From IMG/VR virus record IMGVR_UViG_3300022169_000039, positions 1 to 21,738 of that record: a stretch of 21,738 nucleotides of DNA, one strand, 5' to 3'. This document shows positions 4,832 to 12,868 of this stretch, piece after piece. Positions within the stretch are counted from its first letter, which is position 1. Every line of letters begins with the position of its first letter. The DNA comes from a virus. The notes under the pieces were generated by a model. It was not told the DNA's origin. It did not search any database and saw only the letters and a program-made list of their open reading frames with translations. Made by a program: the position numbers and the translations under genes.

Positions 4832-5268
4832 TGGCACGGGCGGTTGAGATTGACGGCGCAGACGATTTGATCAAGGCGCTCAAGAAGCTGGGCAAAGAGG
4901 GTGAGCGGGCGGCTGCGCAAGTTGTCCAAGCCACGGCTATTGAGGTTCGGGGCGACATCGTAAAGCGGTATCAGCGCGGCCCCAAGACTGGCATCGTATA
5001 TGAAAAGACAAATCCGACCCGCACGCATCAGGCATCAGCACCGGGGGAAGCCCCAGCCACTGATACGGGCAGGCTGGCCAGCGCCACGGTTTACAAGATG
5101 ACTGGCAAGATGTCTGCGGAGGTTTCCAACGACGTGAAGTATGGCGAATGGCTGGAGTTTGGAACGCAGGAGATCAAGCCGCGTCCTGCATGGGTTCCGG
5201 CTGTTGAGGATGCGCGTCCTAAATATCGGAAGCGCATGGAAACCGCACTGGCGAGGCTGACAAGATGA
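4831..5268 (+). CDS. HK97 gp10-family tail completion protein
   Basis: Tail-completion/neck protein of 145 residues. The pattern GADDLIKALKKLG at the N-terminus, the SAPGEAPATDTGRLASA centre and the VSNDVKYGEWLEFGT...RPAWVPAVED C-terminal region are hallmarks of the HK97 gp10 family. It lies between the adaptor and the DUF3168 gene, the canonical order. Confidence 0.88.
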   Translation: MARAVEIDGADDLIKALKKLGKEGERAAAQVVQATAIEVRGDIVKRYQRGPKTGIVYEKTNPTRTHQASAPGEAPATDTGRLASATVYKMTGKMSAEVSNDVKYGEWLEFGTQEIKPRPAWVPAVEDARPKYRKRMETALARLTR

Positions 5269-5693
5269 TCAAAGCGGCTGCATTGCAATCTGGTATTTAC
5301 GCCCGTCTCAACGACGTGTCCGTGACGGGGCTTCTCTCTGCTGCGTATAGCGTTTCAGCAATATTCACAGACGTGCCTCAGGCGACGGACAGCGGCGCTC
5401 CTGCGCAATTCCCCTACATCACCATCGGCAATGATACTTTCGGCCCGTATGATACCAAAGACGACACTGGCGGCGAGGTCGTAGTGCAGGTCAGCATCTG
5501 GTCGCGGGCATCGTCGGACTTGCAGATCAAGGGCATCGCTGATGCAGTTTATTCTCGGATGCACAGGCAGCCAATGACCATCACGGGCGTCGATCACATC
5601 ACGACAGAGTTTGAAAGCCTGACGCTGACCGATGATCCTGACGGCAAGACGCGGCAGGCCATCATGCTTTTCCGTGTTGTTTACTTGGCATAG
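5265..5693 (+). CDS. DUF3168 tail terminator / completion protein
   Basis: Protein of 142 residues starting in an ATGA overlap. It has the DUF3168 features: an N-terminal helix (LQSGIYARL), PYITIGNDTFGPYDTKDDTGGEVVVQVSIWSR in the middle, and a final strand (QAIMLFRVVYLA). Family members cap the tail tube and join it to the head. It ends the head-tail joining cluster; the next gene is 39 bases away behind a promoter candidate. Confidence 0.85.
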   Translation: MIKAAALQSGIYARLNDVSVTGLLSAAYSVSAIFTDVPQATDSGAPAQFPYITIGNDTFGPYDTKDDTGGEVVVQVSIWSRASSDLQIKGIADAVYSRMHRQPMTITGVDHITTEFESLTLTDDPDGKTRQAIMLFRVVYLA

Positions 5694-5732: not shown

Positions 5733-6413
5733 ATGGCTATTTCTGGCCGAAAAATGCGGATCAGCAGAGACAGCGTGGCCATCGTTGGTGCTCGCGTGGA
5801 CAATCTTGCTATCAATGCAGAGCCTGTTGATATCACCGACAAGGATGACGCTGGATGGCGCACCATGCTTGGTGACGTGAGCGTTCGTTCCGTCTCTGGC
5901 GATGTTGAGGGCGTGCTTAAAGGCAGCACAACGATTGCTCAAGCAATGGCGGCAGGCAATCTCCTGATCGACAGCGGGGCTTGCCTGCTGGACGGGATCG
6001 CCAACATCACAGGCGACTTCTTCCTCTCGGCCATGACATTCGGCGCTGATCAAGCAGACACCGTGACGTTTACTGCCAACTTTGAAAGCAGCGGCGTTTT
6101 GACCGTCTCGCTGGCCCCGTATAACACCGTTCTGCCTGCCGTTACTGGCACGACCACAGTGGGCCAGACGCTTACGCGGACGACTGGCACATGGGCGGGC
6201 GATGCGACAATCACCTACGCCACCCAGTGGCAGGAAAGCACGCTTTCAGATCCGAATGCCCCGACGTGGGCGGATATCAGCGGCGCAACAGGGGCAACCC
6301 GCGTTCTCGCTGTCGGGCAGGCTGGCAAGTATGTGCGCGCCCGTATGACGGCAACAAACTCTCGTGGATCAACCGTTGCATTCAGCAACATCGTCGGCCC
6401 TGTGGCCCCGTAA
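5733..6413 (+). CDS. Tail tube protein 1, with C-terminal Ig-like domain
   Basis: Residues about 1-130 form a tail-tube domain of the TP901-1/GTA type (SGRKMRIS, EPVDITDKDDAGWRTML, VEGVLKGS, ITGDFFLSAMTFGADQADTVTFTA). Residues about 132-226 are a separate bacterial Ig-like domain: PAVTGTTTVGQTLTRTTGTW, YATQWQ, VRARMTATNSRGSTVAFSN. The tube domain is closely matched by the next gene. Ig-like domains on tail tubes, as on lambda gpV, project outward and can touch carbohydrate. SD AAGGGTG precedes the ATG. The Ig module may be displayed on only a fraction of tube subunits if both genes are expressed. Confidence 0.85.
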   Translation: MAISGRKMRISRDSVAIVGARVDNLAINAEPVDITDKDDAGWRTMLGDVSVRSVSGDVEGVLKGSTTIAQAMAAGNLLIDSGACLLDGIANITGDFFLSAMTFGADQADTVTFTANFESSGVLTVSLAPYNTVLPAVTGTTTVGQTLTRTTGTWAGDATITYATQWQESTLSDPNAPTWADISGATGATRVLAVGQAGKYVRARMTATNSRGSTVAFSNIVGPVAP

Positions 6414-6427
6414 ATTAGGAGACTAAA

Positions 6428-6817
6428 ATGGCTGCACAATCCGGCAGAAAGATGCGCATCAAAAAGGGTTTGACCGCTATCGCAGGCGCTCGGACTGACA
6501 ATCTGTCGATCAACAACGAGCCTGTTGACATCACTGACAAGGACGACGCGGGCTGGCGCACGATGCTGGCAGATGTCGGCGTTCGTTCGGTGGACGCTGA
6601 CGTTGAGGGCGTGCTAACCGATAGCACGATCATCGCTGTGGCAATGGGTGCGGCGTCTGGCCTTCTGGCAGCATATACCGTTGAGATTGACGGCATCGGT
6701 TCTTTCACTGGCGACTGGTTCCTCTCGGCTATGACGCTGGGCGGCGAGCAGGCGGACGCGGTGACGTTCACGGCAAACATCCAGTCGAGCGGCACTGTCA
6801 CGTTCACGGCGGTTTAA
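6428..6817 (+). CDS. Tail tube protein 2, tube domain only
   Basis: Protein of 129 residues with a strong SD (AGGAGA). It aligns along its whole length with the tube domain of the preceding gene; more than half the positions match by eye, including EPVDITDKDDAGWRTML, RSV-DVEGVL, TGD-FLSAMT and QAD-VTFTAN. It stops exactly where the other protein continues into the Ig-like domain. A tandem duplication followed by gain or loss of the Ig module is the simplest history. It could be the main tube subunit. Confidence 0.85.
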   Translation: MAAQSGRKMRIKKGLTAIAGARTDNLSINNEPVDITDKDDAGWRTMLADVGVRSVDADVEGVLTDSTIIAVAMGAASGLLAAYTVEIDGIGSFTGDWFLSAMTLGGEQADAVTFTANIQSSGTVTFTAV

Positions 6818-6820
6818 CGC

Positions 6821-7174
6821 ATGGGTGTTTTCCGTGATGTGAGCCTGAACATTGGCGGGGCTGATTATGTAATCACCCCGTCAAATAGGCTGTTGCGTCG
6901 GATTGAGATGAAGGGCAAGGCCGAAAACCCGCGCTTTAATCTGGTCGAAGTGATGTTTTTCCTGCAAACATCGGCAGGCTCTATGCCTGATATGGCTTTC
7001 ATCCTCTCGGAGATGGTGACGGCCAGCGGTGGAAAGATGACCGAGGACGAGGCGCTGGCGGTTATCGTTTCGATGGAAGTCGATGATTTGCAAGCGCTCA
7101 AGTCTGCGTTGTGTTCCTGCATCATGCCGGAGCCGAATGAAAAAAAGCCGGACGCCCCCAGCAAGGCGGCGTAA
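6821..7174 (+). CDS. Tail assembly chaperone (G-type short product)
   Basis: Protein of 117 residues resembling GTA/siphovirus tail assembly chaperones: a beta start (FRDVSLNIGGADYVITPSNRLLRRIEMKG) followed by helices (PRFNLVEVMFFLQTSAGSMP, TEDEALAVIVSMEVDDLQALKSAL). It sits between the tail tube and tape measure genes, the position of lambda G. Near its end, codons GAA AAA AAG hold a slippery heptamer, so a fraction of ribosomes should make a longer GT-type protein. The short product ends MPEPNEKKPDAPSKAA. Confidence 0.85.
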   Translation: MGVFRDVSLNIGGADYVITPSNRLLRRIEMKGKAENPRFNLVEVMFFLQTSAGSMPDMAFILSEMVTASGGKMTEDEALAVIVSMEVDDLQALKSALCSCIMPEPNEKKPDAPSKAA

Positions 7175-7183: not shown

Positions 7184-7395
7184 AGATTGAGCCGCTTGAC
7201 TGGGACGCGCTGTATAAGTTGGCAAGGGCTATAGACCTTCCGCCTAGTGAGTTTTGGGACATGACGCTGCCGGAGTTTCTGTTGGAGGTTGAAATGAAAA
7301 CCCCGGATGGAAACGAGACTGGAAAGTTCGCTGGCAAACTCACGTCTTCGGACATTGACGATCTGCTAGGGTTTATGGACGAAGGGACGATCTAA
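7147..7395 (+). CDS. Tail assembly chaperone T extension, made by -1 frameshift
   Basis: This is the frameshifted tail of the chaperone gene; its reading frame runs from 7141 to the TAA at 7393-7395. Slippage after codon 109 adds 82 residues, for a 191-residue fusion with the 6821 product. The extension contains LDWDALYKLARAIDLPPSEFWDMTLPEFLLEVEM, which resembles the FDWPALMRLGLG...PDAFWxMTPREL pattern of the phage/GTA tail chaperone family (TIGR02216-like, from memory). Lambda GT-type fusions bind the tape measure and recruit tail-tube subunits. The stop overlaps the tape measure start (TAATG). No ATG exists before 7261, so a gene finder would miss it. Confidence 0.82.
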   Translation, partial: AGRPQQGGVSGGEIEPLDWDALYKLARAIDLPPSEFWDMTLPEFLLEVEMKTPDGNETGKFAGKLTSSDIDDLLGFMDEGTI

Positions 7396-9461
7396 TGGCT
7401 TTGCCGCCTCTTTCAGTCAAGATCGGAGCCGAAACGGATGGCCTTACTAAAGGGCTGACCGGGGCGCAGGCAGCAATTGCCAAGTTTGCCAAGGTGGGTG
7501 CTGCTGGTGTTGCCGCTGTTGGCGTTGCTATGGTGGCGCTGACCAAAGAAAGCCTTGCCAACATCGACGTTCTGACCAAGCAGGCGCGCAGCCTTGGCTT
7601 GACCACAGCCGCGTTTCAGAAGATGAGCCTTGTGGCTGGTGAAGCTGGCGTTGAGACGGGCAAGCTGTCATCGATGCTTGGCCTGATGCAGCGCAACATC
7701 GTGGAACTGGGACAAGGCACACAGGCACAGGTTGATGCCTTCGGGCGGCTTGGCCTGTCAATGCGTGACTTGCAGGGGCTGGAGCCTGATGCGCAGTTTG
7801 CCAAGATCGCTGATGCGCTGAACAAGATTACAGACCCGGCGGAAAAGACCGCGATGGCGATGGAGGTTTTTGGACGCTCTGGCCGTGATGCAATCAACAT
7901 GCTCAATGGATATGGCGCGGCGGCAGCGAATGCAGCGGCGTTCCAACAGCGTTTTGGCATCGCGGTGGCGCAGGATGTTGCGCAAGGCGTCGAGCGGGCC
8001 AATGATGCTGTCGGGCGTCTGGGAATGGTTTTTACTGGTCTTGGCAATCAAATGGCTGGGGCAGTTGCGCCGTCAATTGAACGGGTAGCAAACGGGCTTG
8101 TTGAGTTTGCCGCCAAGGTCGTCGGCGCACGAATTACACTTGAGGAGTTTTTCGGCAGCATTGAAAAAGCCCGTCAGGTTTTGGGTGCGGATCTGGTTAA
8201 TGAGATCATCAAAGCTGGTGGCAGCCTTGCAGATTTGCAAAGCGAGGTTAAGGGCGTCAGCAATGGCATGAACGCCCTGAACCAGCAGACCATATTGGCT
8301 GAAGGTCGGCTTACGAACTTTGCAGATCGGCTTGACGACATTGGCGAGATTGGGGCATCCGAGGTTCTTCGCGGCTTTATCGGTGAAATGAAAAAAGCCC
8401 GTCAAGAACTGGAAGATGGAGAAATCGACGCCGAAGATTTCCGCGCCAAAATGGAGCAATTGCAGGGCCGTGTTGCAGCCCTGATTGCGCAGTTTGCAGA
8501 CTTCAAAGGCATCGACATATCTGGCGTGACTAGCCAAGTGACGCGCCTTGGGCAAGCCGTTGCGCTTGCGCTTGGATTTGCAACTCAACTTAGGCAGGAA
8601 TTGCCCGGTGGCAGGCCCGGAGTTACAACAGGAACAGGATTGACGCCGGAAGGAAGTCTGATCCCGCCGCGCAGATACACATCAAGCGGACGCGGCACAG
8701 TCAACCCAACGGCCACTGACGCCTTGCTTGCGAGCATGGGTGGAGAGTTTATCACGGGCGACGATGCTGGCGGTGGCGGCGTTGATCCGAATGAGGCATT
8801 GCGCGAGCAGCTTGCAACCCGCCTTGAAACCCTCATGGAAGGGCTGATGACCGAGCGGGAAACCGTGGCGCAATGGTATGCCGAGGGGCAGGCGTTGATT
8901 GACAGCGCAACCGATGCGGAGTTGGCAGCTATTGGTGGAAAGCAGGCGGCGATTGAACGGCTTGCCAAGGAACATCAAGACCGCCTGTCACGCATTCGCG
9001 AACTGGGCGCGGCGGCTGATCTTCACACCGTTCTGGGCGCTGGCGCTGAAATCCTCAATGCGATGGGCCAGACGAATGAAAAGGCGCTGAAAGTTGCCAA
9101 GGTGTTCGGTGCAGCCCAAGCCCTGATCGGCGCATATCAGGGTGCGGCTGAGGCGTTGAAGCTGCCCTTCCCCCAAAACCTCGCTGCCGCAGCTACGGTG
9201 CTTGCTAAGGGCATCGGGTTTGTCAGCGCCATCAAGGGCGTCAACAAGAGCGGCGGTGCTGTGGCATCTACTGGTGGCGCAACAGCAACGGCGGCGGCAG
9301 CCCCAGCGTCCGCAGCGGCCCCGCAGGCATCACAGACGCTCAACTTCAGCGTCACAAATGATCCTTTCGGCATCTCTGATCGTCTCGTGCGTCAAATTGT
9401 CGGGGCAATCAACCAATCGCAGCGTGACGGCTCAACTCTGATCAGGGCGACTGTATCATGA
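7395..9461 (+). CDS. Tail tape measure protein
   Basis: Protein of 688 residues, the largest in the window, directly after the chaperone. It begins LSVKIGAETDGLTKGLTGAQAAI, typical of tape measure N-termini. A hydrophobic segment (VGAAGVAAVGVAMVAL) follows at about 33-48, then long Ala/Gln-rich helices, including FQKMSLVAGEAGVETGKLSSMLG and ITDPAEKTAMAMEVFGRSGRDAINML, a common tape-measure motif. The C-terminus is Ala-rich and low complexity. It sets tail length; at about 1.5 angstrom per residue this suggests a tail near 100 nm (inference). The DNA in this stretch is rich in internal alternative ORFs, which are shadows. Confidence 0.92.
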   Translation: MALPPLSVKIGAETDGLTKGLTGAQAAIAKFAKVGAAGVAAVGVAMVALTKESLANIDVLTKQARSLGLTTAAFQKMSLVAGEAGVETGKLSSMLGLMQRNIVELGQGTQAQVDAFGRLGLSMRDLQGLEPDAQFAKIADALNKITDPAEKTAMAMEVFGRSGRDAINMLNGYGAAAANAAAFQQRFGIAVAQDVAQGVERANDAVGRLGMVFTGLGNQMAGAVAPSIERVANGLVEFAAKVVGARITLEEFFGSIEKARQVLGADLVNEIIKAGGSLADLQSEVKGVSNGMNALNQQTILAEGRLTNFADRLDDIGEIGASEVLRGFIGEMKKARQELEDGEIDAEDFRAKMEQLQGRVAALIAQFADFKGIDISGVTSQVTRLGQAVALALGFATQLRQELPGGRPGVTTGTGLTPEGSLIPPRRYTSSGRGTVNPTATDALLASMGGEFITGDDAGGGGVDPNEALREQLATRLETLMEGLMTERETVAQWYAEGQALIDSATDAELAAIGGKQAAIERLAKEHQDRLSRIRELGAAADLHTVLGAGAEILNAMGQTNEKALKVAKVFGAAQALIGAYQGAAEALKLPFPQNLAAAATVLAKGIGFVSAIKGVNKSGGAVASTGGATATAAAAPASAAAPQASQTLNFSVTNDPFGISDRLVRQIVGAINQSQRDGSTLIRATVS

Positions 9462-10250: not shown

Positions 10251-11039
10251 ATGCCTAAAATTACCGATCTTCCGTTAGCAACAATCCTTGACGCAGATGA
10301 TCTGCTATATGCCGTTGTTGATAGCAATAGTAGGCGCATTCCTGCTAGATCATTGTCCGGTCGCAATCTGATCATCAACGGCTCTGGCCGTATTAATCAG
10401 CGCGGATATGTCAGCGGCACAGCAACAACAGGGGCAAATCAATTTTCGCTTGATCGGTGGTTTGTGGTCACGTCAGGCGAAAGCCTTTCATTTACGGGCA
10501 CCAATGCACGGCGCGTTATGACCGCAACAGGTGGCGTCGGGCAGGTAATTGAGGGCGCGAATATCGTCGGCGGCTCTTATGTTTTGAACTGGGATGGTGA
10601 CGCTACAGTTACGGTCAACGGGACTGCGCGGGCAAAGGGCGAAACCTTTACGCTGACGGCAAATGCAAATGTCGTTGTAGTGTTTTCGTCCGGCACTTTT
10701 ACCGATGTTCAGCTAGAGGCGGGCATAACCGCAACGCCGTTTGAATTGCGGTCACTCGGGCAAGAATTGGCATTGTGCCAAAGGTTCTATCAGCAGATTA
10801 ATCTAAGGTCGCGATGGGATGCTGGCGATTCCGGTTGGGTGGACGCTAGGCATTACCCGCACCCTGTCACAATGCGCGCCACCCCATCTGTTACATTTTC
10901 TGGTGTGACAAGCGTAAACGCGACATCCGTTACTTTGAATAGCACAGGTATTACCGCGAACTATAACGTCCAGTCTATCGGCGCTGGACCTGTGGACCAT
11001 CAGGCTCTGTATATGTTTTCGGCGGAATTGACTTCGTAA
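10251..11039 (+). CDS. Tail fibre / receptor-binding-like protein
   Basis: Residues 1-34 (KITDLPLATILDADDLLYAVV) match the attachment segment found at the N-terminus of many phage fibres. Residues 39-70 carry the NLIINGSGRINQRGY...FSLDRW signature, and 153-180 the VQLEAGITATPFELRS...ELALCQRFYQ signature of fibre proteins with a carbohydrate-binding-like beta-sandwich. SD GGAG lies 7 nt before the ATG. Unusually for a fibre gene, it sits before the large hub-like gene, with a TAATG overlap. Confidence 0.72.
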   Translation: MPKITDLPLATILDADDLLYAVVDSNSRRIPARSLSGRNLIINGSGRINQRGYVSGTATTGANQFSLDRWFVVTSGESLSFTGTNARRVMTATGGVGQVIEGANIVGGSYVLNWDGDATVTVNGTARAKGETFTLTANANVVVVFSSGTFTDVQLEAGITATPFELRSLGQELALCQRFYQQINLRSRWDAGDSGWVDARHYPHPVTMRATPSVTFSGVTSVNATSVTLNSTGITANYNVQSIGAGPVDHQALYMFSAELTS

Positions 11040-12868
11040 TGAGCAACGCAGACTTCACCCGCGAGCCTTTGCAGATCGTCGAGATCGTGCAGCCGCTTTG
11101 CTCTCGCACCTTTGGCGTTGGCGCGTGCGAAGCCGTTGGCATTCCGTGTTACAACACCGACAAGACTTGCAAGTTCATCACGGCGCTTGATCTGTCAGAG
11201 CAAGTAACGCTTCGTTTTGTGGCTCCGGGGTCCAATGCTCTGGAATATAGCGGCCCGATTACGGGGGCTTTGCTTGACGAGACTGATGTTGACCTTCTGG
11301 ATGAGACGGATAGCCCCCTTCTGGGCGAGGGTTTTACTGTCGCTCCGACGTCAGAGGCATTCAACCCAGCGCTTGCAATCCCTGCCCTACTAGCCGTGGA
11401 TACCGCGCCGACCGTCTTGAACGTGGCCGGGGGCGATGACAACATGTCACCGCTTGGCATCCGTGCCGTGACTAATGTGGCGATTAAGGACTTCCCATTC
11501 AACGACGTGGGGCTTGACCCTTATCTGGCAGATCGCAGCTATGACCCGATCACGCAGGGCAGTTTCTGGACCAAGTGGCTCGCGCGCAACCCGTTCCATA
11601 CGGGCTACATCCTGAACATCTATGACGGCTATTTCGGGCAGTCGCTGGATGAGATGATCAAGCGGGAATATTCGATTGAGAAGATCGACGCATCCCGGTC
11701 GCAGGTTCGCATCGTTGCAAAGGACATCCTGCGGAAGGTGACGGATACTGAAGTGACGGCCCCAAGGCTTTCGCCCGGATCTCTGGCGGCGAACATCACC
11801 AACGTGGCAACATCGCTTTCTGTGGCCGGGGCTGTCGTTGCGGATTATCCAGCGTCGGGCAGGATTCGTATCAACAACGAGATCATCGCCTATACTGGTA
11901 GGTCGCTATCCGGTTCGAATGTTCTATTCACTGGCCTGACGCGAGGGGTGCTGAATACGACCGCAGCGGCGCACAATCAATTCGACCGCGTGCAGGAAGT
12001 TCTCAGCTATGAGGCCCAACCGTTCTCGGACATCATCTATGATCTGCTGGTCAACTACGGCGGCATTCCGGCTGTCTACATCACCAAGACCGACTGGGAT
12101 GATGAGTTCAACACCTATCGTCTGATCTATAACTTCACATCTCACATCGCTGATCCTGTTCCCGTGCAGCAACTGGTCGGAGAATTGGCCCAGCAGGGGC
12201 TATCCTACATCTGGTGGGATGAGAGGGTGCAGAAGATCAGACTTCGGGCTGAGAGGCCCGTTCCTGCGCCTGTGCTAATCACTCAGGAAGCCGACATCAT
12301 TGCGGACAGCTTCGTGATTGAGGAAGTGCCGAAAGATCGGGCTTCGCAGGTTTATGTTTATTACGGGCTTCGCAATCCGACCCTGAACCCGCGCGACAAA
12401 TTTAGCTATTCGCTTGCCGAGGTTCGGATCGACGCCGAGGCAGAGCGGCAATATGGCGAGGCCAAGCCGAAAGAAATTTTCTGCCGCTGGATCAACAGCA
12501 ACGTGATTGCATCGTCGCTATCAAATGCATGGCTGCTGAAGTTTCGGGATGTTCGCAAGCACATCCAATTCCGTCTCACGGCGAAAGACATCGAAAGCAT
12601 CTGGACCGGGGACGTGGCGAATGTCTCGCACTTCCTGTATGTTAATCCAGACGGGTCTATCCGCGTTGCCAATTGGCTGATCACGAGCGCCGAGACGGTC
12701 ACGCAGGGCGGTGAATATCAGTTCATGGCCGAGGATAACGAGAGCGGCGGCGTGTTCTGGGTCTGGGTGGCGGATGACGAAACGGCCCCCACGACCGAGG
12801 TTGGCGCGTGGGTCGATGCAAGTGGAACAGATGGAGCGGGCAACACACTGCCGTTCCGATGGCTATGA
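11039..12868 (+). CDS. Large tail hub / tip protein with four-cysteine cluster
   Basis: Protein of 609 residues. It starts TREPLQIVEIVQPLCSRTFG; cysteines at 21, 30, 37 and 44 give a C-x8-C-x6-C-x6-C cluster. A short Leu/Asp repeat (LLDETD at 78-83 and 86-91, then LLGEGF) follows. The middle contains a beta-hairpin module (RIRINNEIIAYTGRSL...LTRGVLNTTAAAHNQFDRV) common in phage hub proteins, and later IWWDERVQKIRLRAERP and FCRWINSNV. Position after the distal-tail-like gene suggests the tail tip or hub, which guides DNA and contacts the cell envelope. The Cys set could bind Fe-S or Zn, as lambda gpL binds an Fe-S cluster. Confidence 0.72.
   Translation: MSNADFTREPLQIVEIVQPLCSRTFGVGACEAVGIPCYNTDKTCKFITALDLSEQVTLRFVAPGSNALEYSGPITGALLDETDVDLLDETDSPLLGEGFTVAPTSEAFNPALAIPALLAVDTAPTVLNVAGGDDNMSPLGIRAVTNVAIKDFPFNDVGLDPYLADRSYDPITQGSFWTKWLARNPFHTGYILNIYDGYFGQSLDEMIKREYSIEKIDASRSQVRIVAKDILRKVTDTEVTAPRLSPGSLAANITNVATSLSVAGAVVADYPASGRIRINNEIIAYTGRSLSGSNVLFTGLTRGVLNTTAAAHNQFDRVQEVLSYEAQPFSDIIYDLLVNYGGIPAVYITKTDWDDEFNTYRLIYNFTSHIADPVPVQQLVGELAQQGLSYIWWDERVQKIRLRAERPVPAPVLITQEADIIADSFVIEEVPKDRASQVYVYYGLRNPTLNPRDKFSYSLAEVRIDAEAERQYGEAKPKEIFCRWINSNVIASSLSNAWLLKFRDVRKHIQFRLTAKDIESIWTGDVANVSHFLYVNPDGSIRVANWLITSAETVTQGGEYQFMAEDNESGGVFWVWVADDETAPTTEVGAWVDASGTDGAGNTLPFRWL

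Follow-up and report, generated by a model that had tools for sequence, protein, structure and literature searches.

The 21,738-nucleotide window analyzed here, which is a whole IMG/VR virus record, carries two side-by-side tail-tube genes, A and B, of which only the first runs on into an Ig-like domain. The tube of a siphophage is usually described as repeats of a single protein. We consider it probable that both A and B serve as structural subunits in the same two-component non-contractile tail tube. In this proposal, B would be the ancestral tube subunit and A an old duplicate with an outward-facing Ig-like domain. Both would polymerize around the tape measure protein via a common ring-stacking loop, and Ig knobs would be present on only part of the tube subunits. 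We infer that both proteins enter the tube and that they contact each other; by analogy to what has been proposed for lambda and SPP1, the Ig knob may bind the cell envelope weakly. The features of the locus were assigned as follows.

5265..5693, + strand: tail terminator (gp17-like), upstream neighbor, conserved in the A-B family (PF11367, phrog_176; synteny)
5733..6413, + strand: gene A, tail-tube protein with C-terminal Ig-like domain, 226 aa (ORF, profile matches, BLASTP, model)
5733..6110, + strand: tube domain of A, residues 1-126 (PF06199 match at residues 15-124; model strands at 8-127; RcGTA tube 6tba by sequence and fold)
5814..5891, + strand: putative ring-stacking loop (beta2-beta3) of A, residues 28-53 (model topology; column conservation)
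6111..6410, + strand: Ig-like domain of A, residues 127-226 (high-confidence modeled beta-sandwich; Ig/FN3 neighbors)
6417..6421, + strand: AGGAG ribosome-binding site of B (sequence)
6428..6817, + strand: gene B, tail-tube protein without Ig domain, 129 aa (ORF, profile matches, model)
6512..6589, + strand: putative ring-stacking loop (beta2-beta3) of B, residues 29-54 (model; column conservation)
6821..7174, + strand: tail assembly chaperone, downstream neighbor (weak phrog_2115 match; position, slippery run, -1 frame ORF)
7395..9461, + strand: tape measure protein, 688 aa (phrog_9483, E value of 2e-52)

The tube domains of A and B aligned without gaps and shared 81 of 125 residues (65%; BLASTP E value of 1e-52). 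Both proteins matched PF06199 (Phage_tail_2) above its curated cut-off of 23.8 bits, with 41.8 bits for A and 61.3 bits for B, and both matched the major tail protein family phrog_1407. The original prediction of two neighboring genes with a shared tube domain, identical at more than half of its positions, was thus confirmed. Its remark that the genes are also similar in DNA was correct for 172 nt at 73% identity, but synonymous sites were saturated (dS of ~1.9), indicating that constraint on the protein, not recent copying, accounts for this similarity. By sequence, the sole solved structure matched by A was the tail tube of the Rhodobacter gene transfer agent, RcGTA (6tba). The pair lies between the tail terminator and the chaperone and tape measure genes, which is the slot of the tube gene in single-tube phages.

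Monomer models of both proteins were built with AlphaFold2 from alignments of family members. The model of B showed tube topology with a pLDDT of 74. That of A combined a tube part with a confident beta-sandwich (overall pLDDT of 84), with values of ~45 to 87 in the tube part and ~85 to 98 per block in the Ig part (residues 127 to 226). When these moderate-confidence models were searched with Foldseek, B matched the RcGTA tube (E value of 7e-5, probability of 1.00) and, more weakly, lambda gpV (E value of 3e-3), and A matched the RcGTA tube (probability of 1.00, E value of 0.011); TM-scores of the A and B tube models to the RcGTA tube were only 0.5 to 0.6. The top structural neighbors of A residues 127 to 226 were Ig/FN3-like domains (VIA-align Z values of 7 to 10.7). 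None of the Pfam Ig models (Big_2, I-set, and FN3 subfamilies) matched A at an E value of 1 or less. As modeled, A carries an Ig-type beta-sandwich C-terminal to its tube domain and B ends after the tube, which agrees with the expectation that only the first gene is extended. Among viral contigs, the Ig domain was confined to the A-B pair family at the sensitivity used.

In SPP1, gp17.1 and gp17.1* are produced from one gene in a 3:1 ratio via translational frameshift, one of them with an Ig-fold (FN3) extension, and in lambda the single gene for gpV adds a C-terminal Ig-like domain to the tube domain, which places the Ig domain on every subunit (PMC8718954). The account of these two phages that accompanied the prediction agrees with this literature. 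A and B, both predicted tube proteins, resemble the SPP1 pair in that one of the two has an Ig-fold extension. However, the tube domains of gp17.1 and gp17.1* are identical and derive from one gene, whereas A and B are separate diverged genes. The Ig domain is in frame within the ORF of A, and B follows after 14 nt as an ORF with its own start and stop. The idea that the mixture would be set by two genes rather than by a frameshift therefore stood. The domain order of A is that of lambda gpV, which differs in being encoded by one gene; here, the Ig domain is on A only. RcGTA (tube protein Rcc01691, 6tba), RcapNL, P12026, GJ44, and Pan4 share the tube family and the order terminator, tube, chaperone, and tape measure, but they possess a single tube gene without an Ig domain.

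To define the spread of the pair, viral contigs were scanned with A and an A variant, with B, and with the Ig domain. This yielded 66 distinct related IMG/VR contigs, counted by contig name and excluding the distant single-tube relative L040. Adjacent A-B tube genes were present in all 63 contigs that showed both positions, the other three ending inside one gene, and the first gene carried the Ig domain in 62 of the 63. The A-B gap was 12 to 18 nt in the pairs measured. Exactly two tubes per record were found with the B profile in 12 of 12 whole records, and the gene order gp10-like, terminator, A, B, chaperone, and tape measure was kept in the loci examined. A single tube gene occupied the same slot in all seven single-tube relatives inspected (Oceanospirillum GJ44, Rhodobacter RcapNL, Marinomonas P12026, Pseudanabaena Pan4, Idiomarinaceae 1N2-2, Alteromonas PB15, and an uncultured virus). 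One B gene (L020:5001-5384) stops at 127 aa with TGA while its profile match continues, possibly because of a sequencing error or a point mutation. In the collection searched, A was not covered over more than 80% of its length by any phage record. The search of bacterial genome contigs gave only one distant, single-tube match, in Mesorhizobium sp. At the strict threshold used, no match came from samples of 385 class and 398 phylum genomes, which were run without a positive control. Among 101 genomes of the family of the Mesorhizobium match, 65 had tube matches, none of them as an adjacent pair.

The age of the duplication was evaluated with a maximum-likelihood tree of 51 tube domains, including 21 A tubes. 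All 21 A tubes formed one group with a support of 88/90, which is not decisive, and single tubes branched outside A and B with a support of 98/95. The AU test of B monophyly gave a P value of 0.129. Since the A tubes group together, one old duplication is favored, and A is best read, on this sequence evidence, as a single old duplicate. The question raised in the prediction, whether the duplication is recent, was answered in the negative. A recent duplication in the window's own phage was ruled out by the saturated dS and by the AU test of a window-private duplication (P = 0.022), and within-genome synonymous divergence between A and B was mostly near or past saturation. Recent gene conversion was likewise rejected as the source of the high A-B identity in the window, given few extra shared codons and no long exact repeat. 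In close pairs, dN/dS was 0.05 to 0.1 for the A tube, the B tube, and the Ig domain; judged by these ratios, strong purifying selection acts on both genes. Of the two, B changes more slowly, with a mean identity of 0.750 versus 0.677 for A and the greater conservation in 152 of 171 pairs. That A and B are a redundant duplicate or an assembly artifact of no functional meaning is scarcely credible, as the pair occurs in 63 contigs of many samples with saturated dS and low dN/dS. Retention of both copies since an old duplication suggests that the tail is probably built of two different bricks.

The faster evolution of A than of B is the sole observation in favor of a role for A outside the tube, where it would be soluble or a minor protein and might, for example, regulate assembly or act as a decoy for tube-recognizing host sensors; DSR2 has been reported to recognize a phage tail tube (PMC10981675). 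We regard such a role as very unlikely. The tube fold and the stacking loop of A are held under strong selection, and decorated tube subunits usually have just this layout, with the Ig domain fused behind the tube domain.

In characterized tubes, the long beta2-beta3 loop stacks the rings (PMC8718954). Within the putative loop of A and B, 15 of 26 columns had the same fixed residue in both proteins, compared to 27 of 101 columns elsewhere (P = 0.005). The loop was thereby the stretch that A and B have most in common. All 10 A/B-diagnostic columns fell outside it, which by itself was not significant (P = 0.21). The diagnostic residues were S11, V18, S55, K63, C82, A105, L117, E118, and A125 in A and K12, A19, D56, mostly E/T64, Y83, G106, I118, Q119, and an aromatic residue at 126 in B. 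With a nearly identical putative loop, stacking of A on B should be possible, whether as rings or as subunits, and the diagnostic positions indicate that A and B are not interchangeable.

Amino acid likeness of A and B was higher within a phage (0.593) than with partners of other lineages (0.559). For eight deep lineages, it was 0.622 within phages versus 0.565 expected (P = 2e-5 by lineage permutation, which is not fully phylogeny-aware). Codon sharing within a phage was barely raised (0.450 versus 0.431; P = 0.047). An excess in amino acids with little excess in codons fits co-adaptation better than recent gene conversion. This covariation could reflect co-adaptation in one assembly, with old gene conversion or a common third partner as further possible sources.

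With regard to pattern, we tentatively place A and B interspersed within or between rings, at not quite an even chance; this includes an obligate alternating A3B3 pseudo-hexamer with three Ig knobs per ring, which we consider rather unlikely when taken by itself. It would be the equivalent of T5 pb6 with the two units left unfused in separate genes; in pb6, a tube domain is duplicated and fused, and the protein forms trimeric pseudo-hexameric rings with one Ig domain per subunit (PMC5717097). The A-B pair is like pb6 in its duplicated tube domain and one Ig domain, but pb6 is fused in one protein, whereas two ORFs with a 14-nt gap encode two separate proteins here. The alternating hexamer agrees with the strict co-retention of one A and one B, the stacking loop common to both with diagnostic columns outside it only, the within-phage covariation, and the similar ribosome-binding sites of the two genes. 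Against this, the A-B contact is putative, a single such subunit suffices for the tubes of many phages, and the covariation could stem from any common partner, e.g., the tape measure. If the A3B3 arrangement were true, the tube would have three-fold symmetry, which would fit a three-fold tail tip. The tube of phiCbK has been reported to be three-fold (PMC5717097), but this phage was rejected as an example of a two-gene tube, as it has one large tube protein of 64.8 kDa (PMC3556154).

A zoned tube, with A in one or a few special rings at one end, beside either the terminator or the distal tail protein, and with B in all other rings, is doubtful but has several points in its favor. A shows a conservation of its own, with specific fixed residues (S11, V18, S55, K63, C82, L117, and E118), B is more conserved than A, as a bulk subunit might be, and gene A adjoins the terminator gene in the loci checked. 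However, A retained the whole stacking loop, when an end ring needs one face only; the tube is already capped by terminator and distal proteins in known phages, and gene order is weak evidence of position. The remaining weight lies with arrangements that are neither interspersed nor zoned.

One contig also bears on zoning. In L038, the A-type gene stops just past the tube domain, 12 nt before B (L038:4602-5390), and no Ig match was found elsewhere on its 36-kb record. The maximum-likelihood tree placed this tube domain inside the Ig-bearing A tubes, so the Ig domain was lost cleanly with the tube domain retained. Retention of the A tube domain without Ig implies a role for A beyond carrying the knob, a job of its own that zoning would account for. 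On the evidence of this one contig, A is more than an Ig carrier, and Ig mixing does not fully explain the presence of the second gene. In lambda, removal of the Ig domain cuts activity 100-fold and tails still form, and in SPP1 the Ig-fold domain is dispensable (PMC8718954).

Ribosome-binding sites were considered as a source for the A:B ratio of the proposed two-component tube. The duplex energy in the window was -7.3 for B versus -4.9 for A. No consistent difference between the A and B sites was found across the family, B being stronger in 11 of 20, and this approach was dropped. Using 0.15 nm per tape-measure residue, as applied to phiCbK (PMC3556154), the 688-residue tape measure gives an estimated tail of ~103 nm, with ~26 rings and ~155 subunits.

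Other tail genes of the window were also inspected. Between positions 6821 and 7395, the chaperone ORF ends near the slippery run A_AAA_AAG (7141-7147), and a -1 frame ORF (..PLDWDALYKLARAIDLPPSEFWDMTLPEF..) continues from the chaperone to the tape measure start. A G/GT-type programmed -1 frameshift of the chaperone is likely from this arrangement; A-rich slippery runs occur at the same chaperone position in many relatives. The tail protein encoded at 11039-12868 is ~62% identical to the products of genes of Microcystis phages Mae-JY02/Mel-JY03 and Pseudanabaena phage Pan4, whereas the Pan4 tube is only ~32% identical to B, and the tail module thus looks mosaic.

In the literature found, paralogous tube genes were described only in actinobacteriophage work. 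In FortCran (cluster DJ), gp22 and gp24 are non-adjacent and 43% identical, one with 51 extra residues, and its authors suggest horizontal acquisition of one copy (PMC12859696), unlike the single duplication favored by our tree. Microbacterium phage Camille (cluster EL; L097:4907-8405) has three major tail protein genes, gp17, gp19, and gp20, of which gp19 and gp20 are adjacent; their homologous cores are ~48% identical and their C termini differ. The Damascus paper names only two major tail protein genes for Camille's relative. Clusters DJ and EL are thus similar to the A-B family in having paralogous tube genes with different C-terminal extensions in one phage, but their tubes belong to phrog_2645, with no Pfam match above cut-off and no Ig domain reported. 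The Camille proteins match phrog_2645, which is not listed for the window proteins. Two other candidate precedents were discarded: PDB entry 9occ (Sf11), in which two chains were matched but whose paper lists one tail tube protein and a separate baseplate hub, and JBD30, whose "two major tail proteins" are a single protein shown as two copies in a figure. With FortCran and Camille, paralogous tubes as a kind are not unprecedented. What is new is the Ig-tagged/untagged split, the strictly conserved adjacent pair, and the evidence of one old duplication in a GTA-like tube family.

These findings suggest that the A-B family of uncultured phages, if its tube is indeed built of two components, would be a natural system for studying the control of ring composition, Ig dosage, and tube symmetry. 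L038, in which the Ig domain is gone and the second tube gene retained, separates Ig function from second-tube function. Furthermore, the pair would illustrate a possible unfused stage toward double tube proteins such as T5 pb6.
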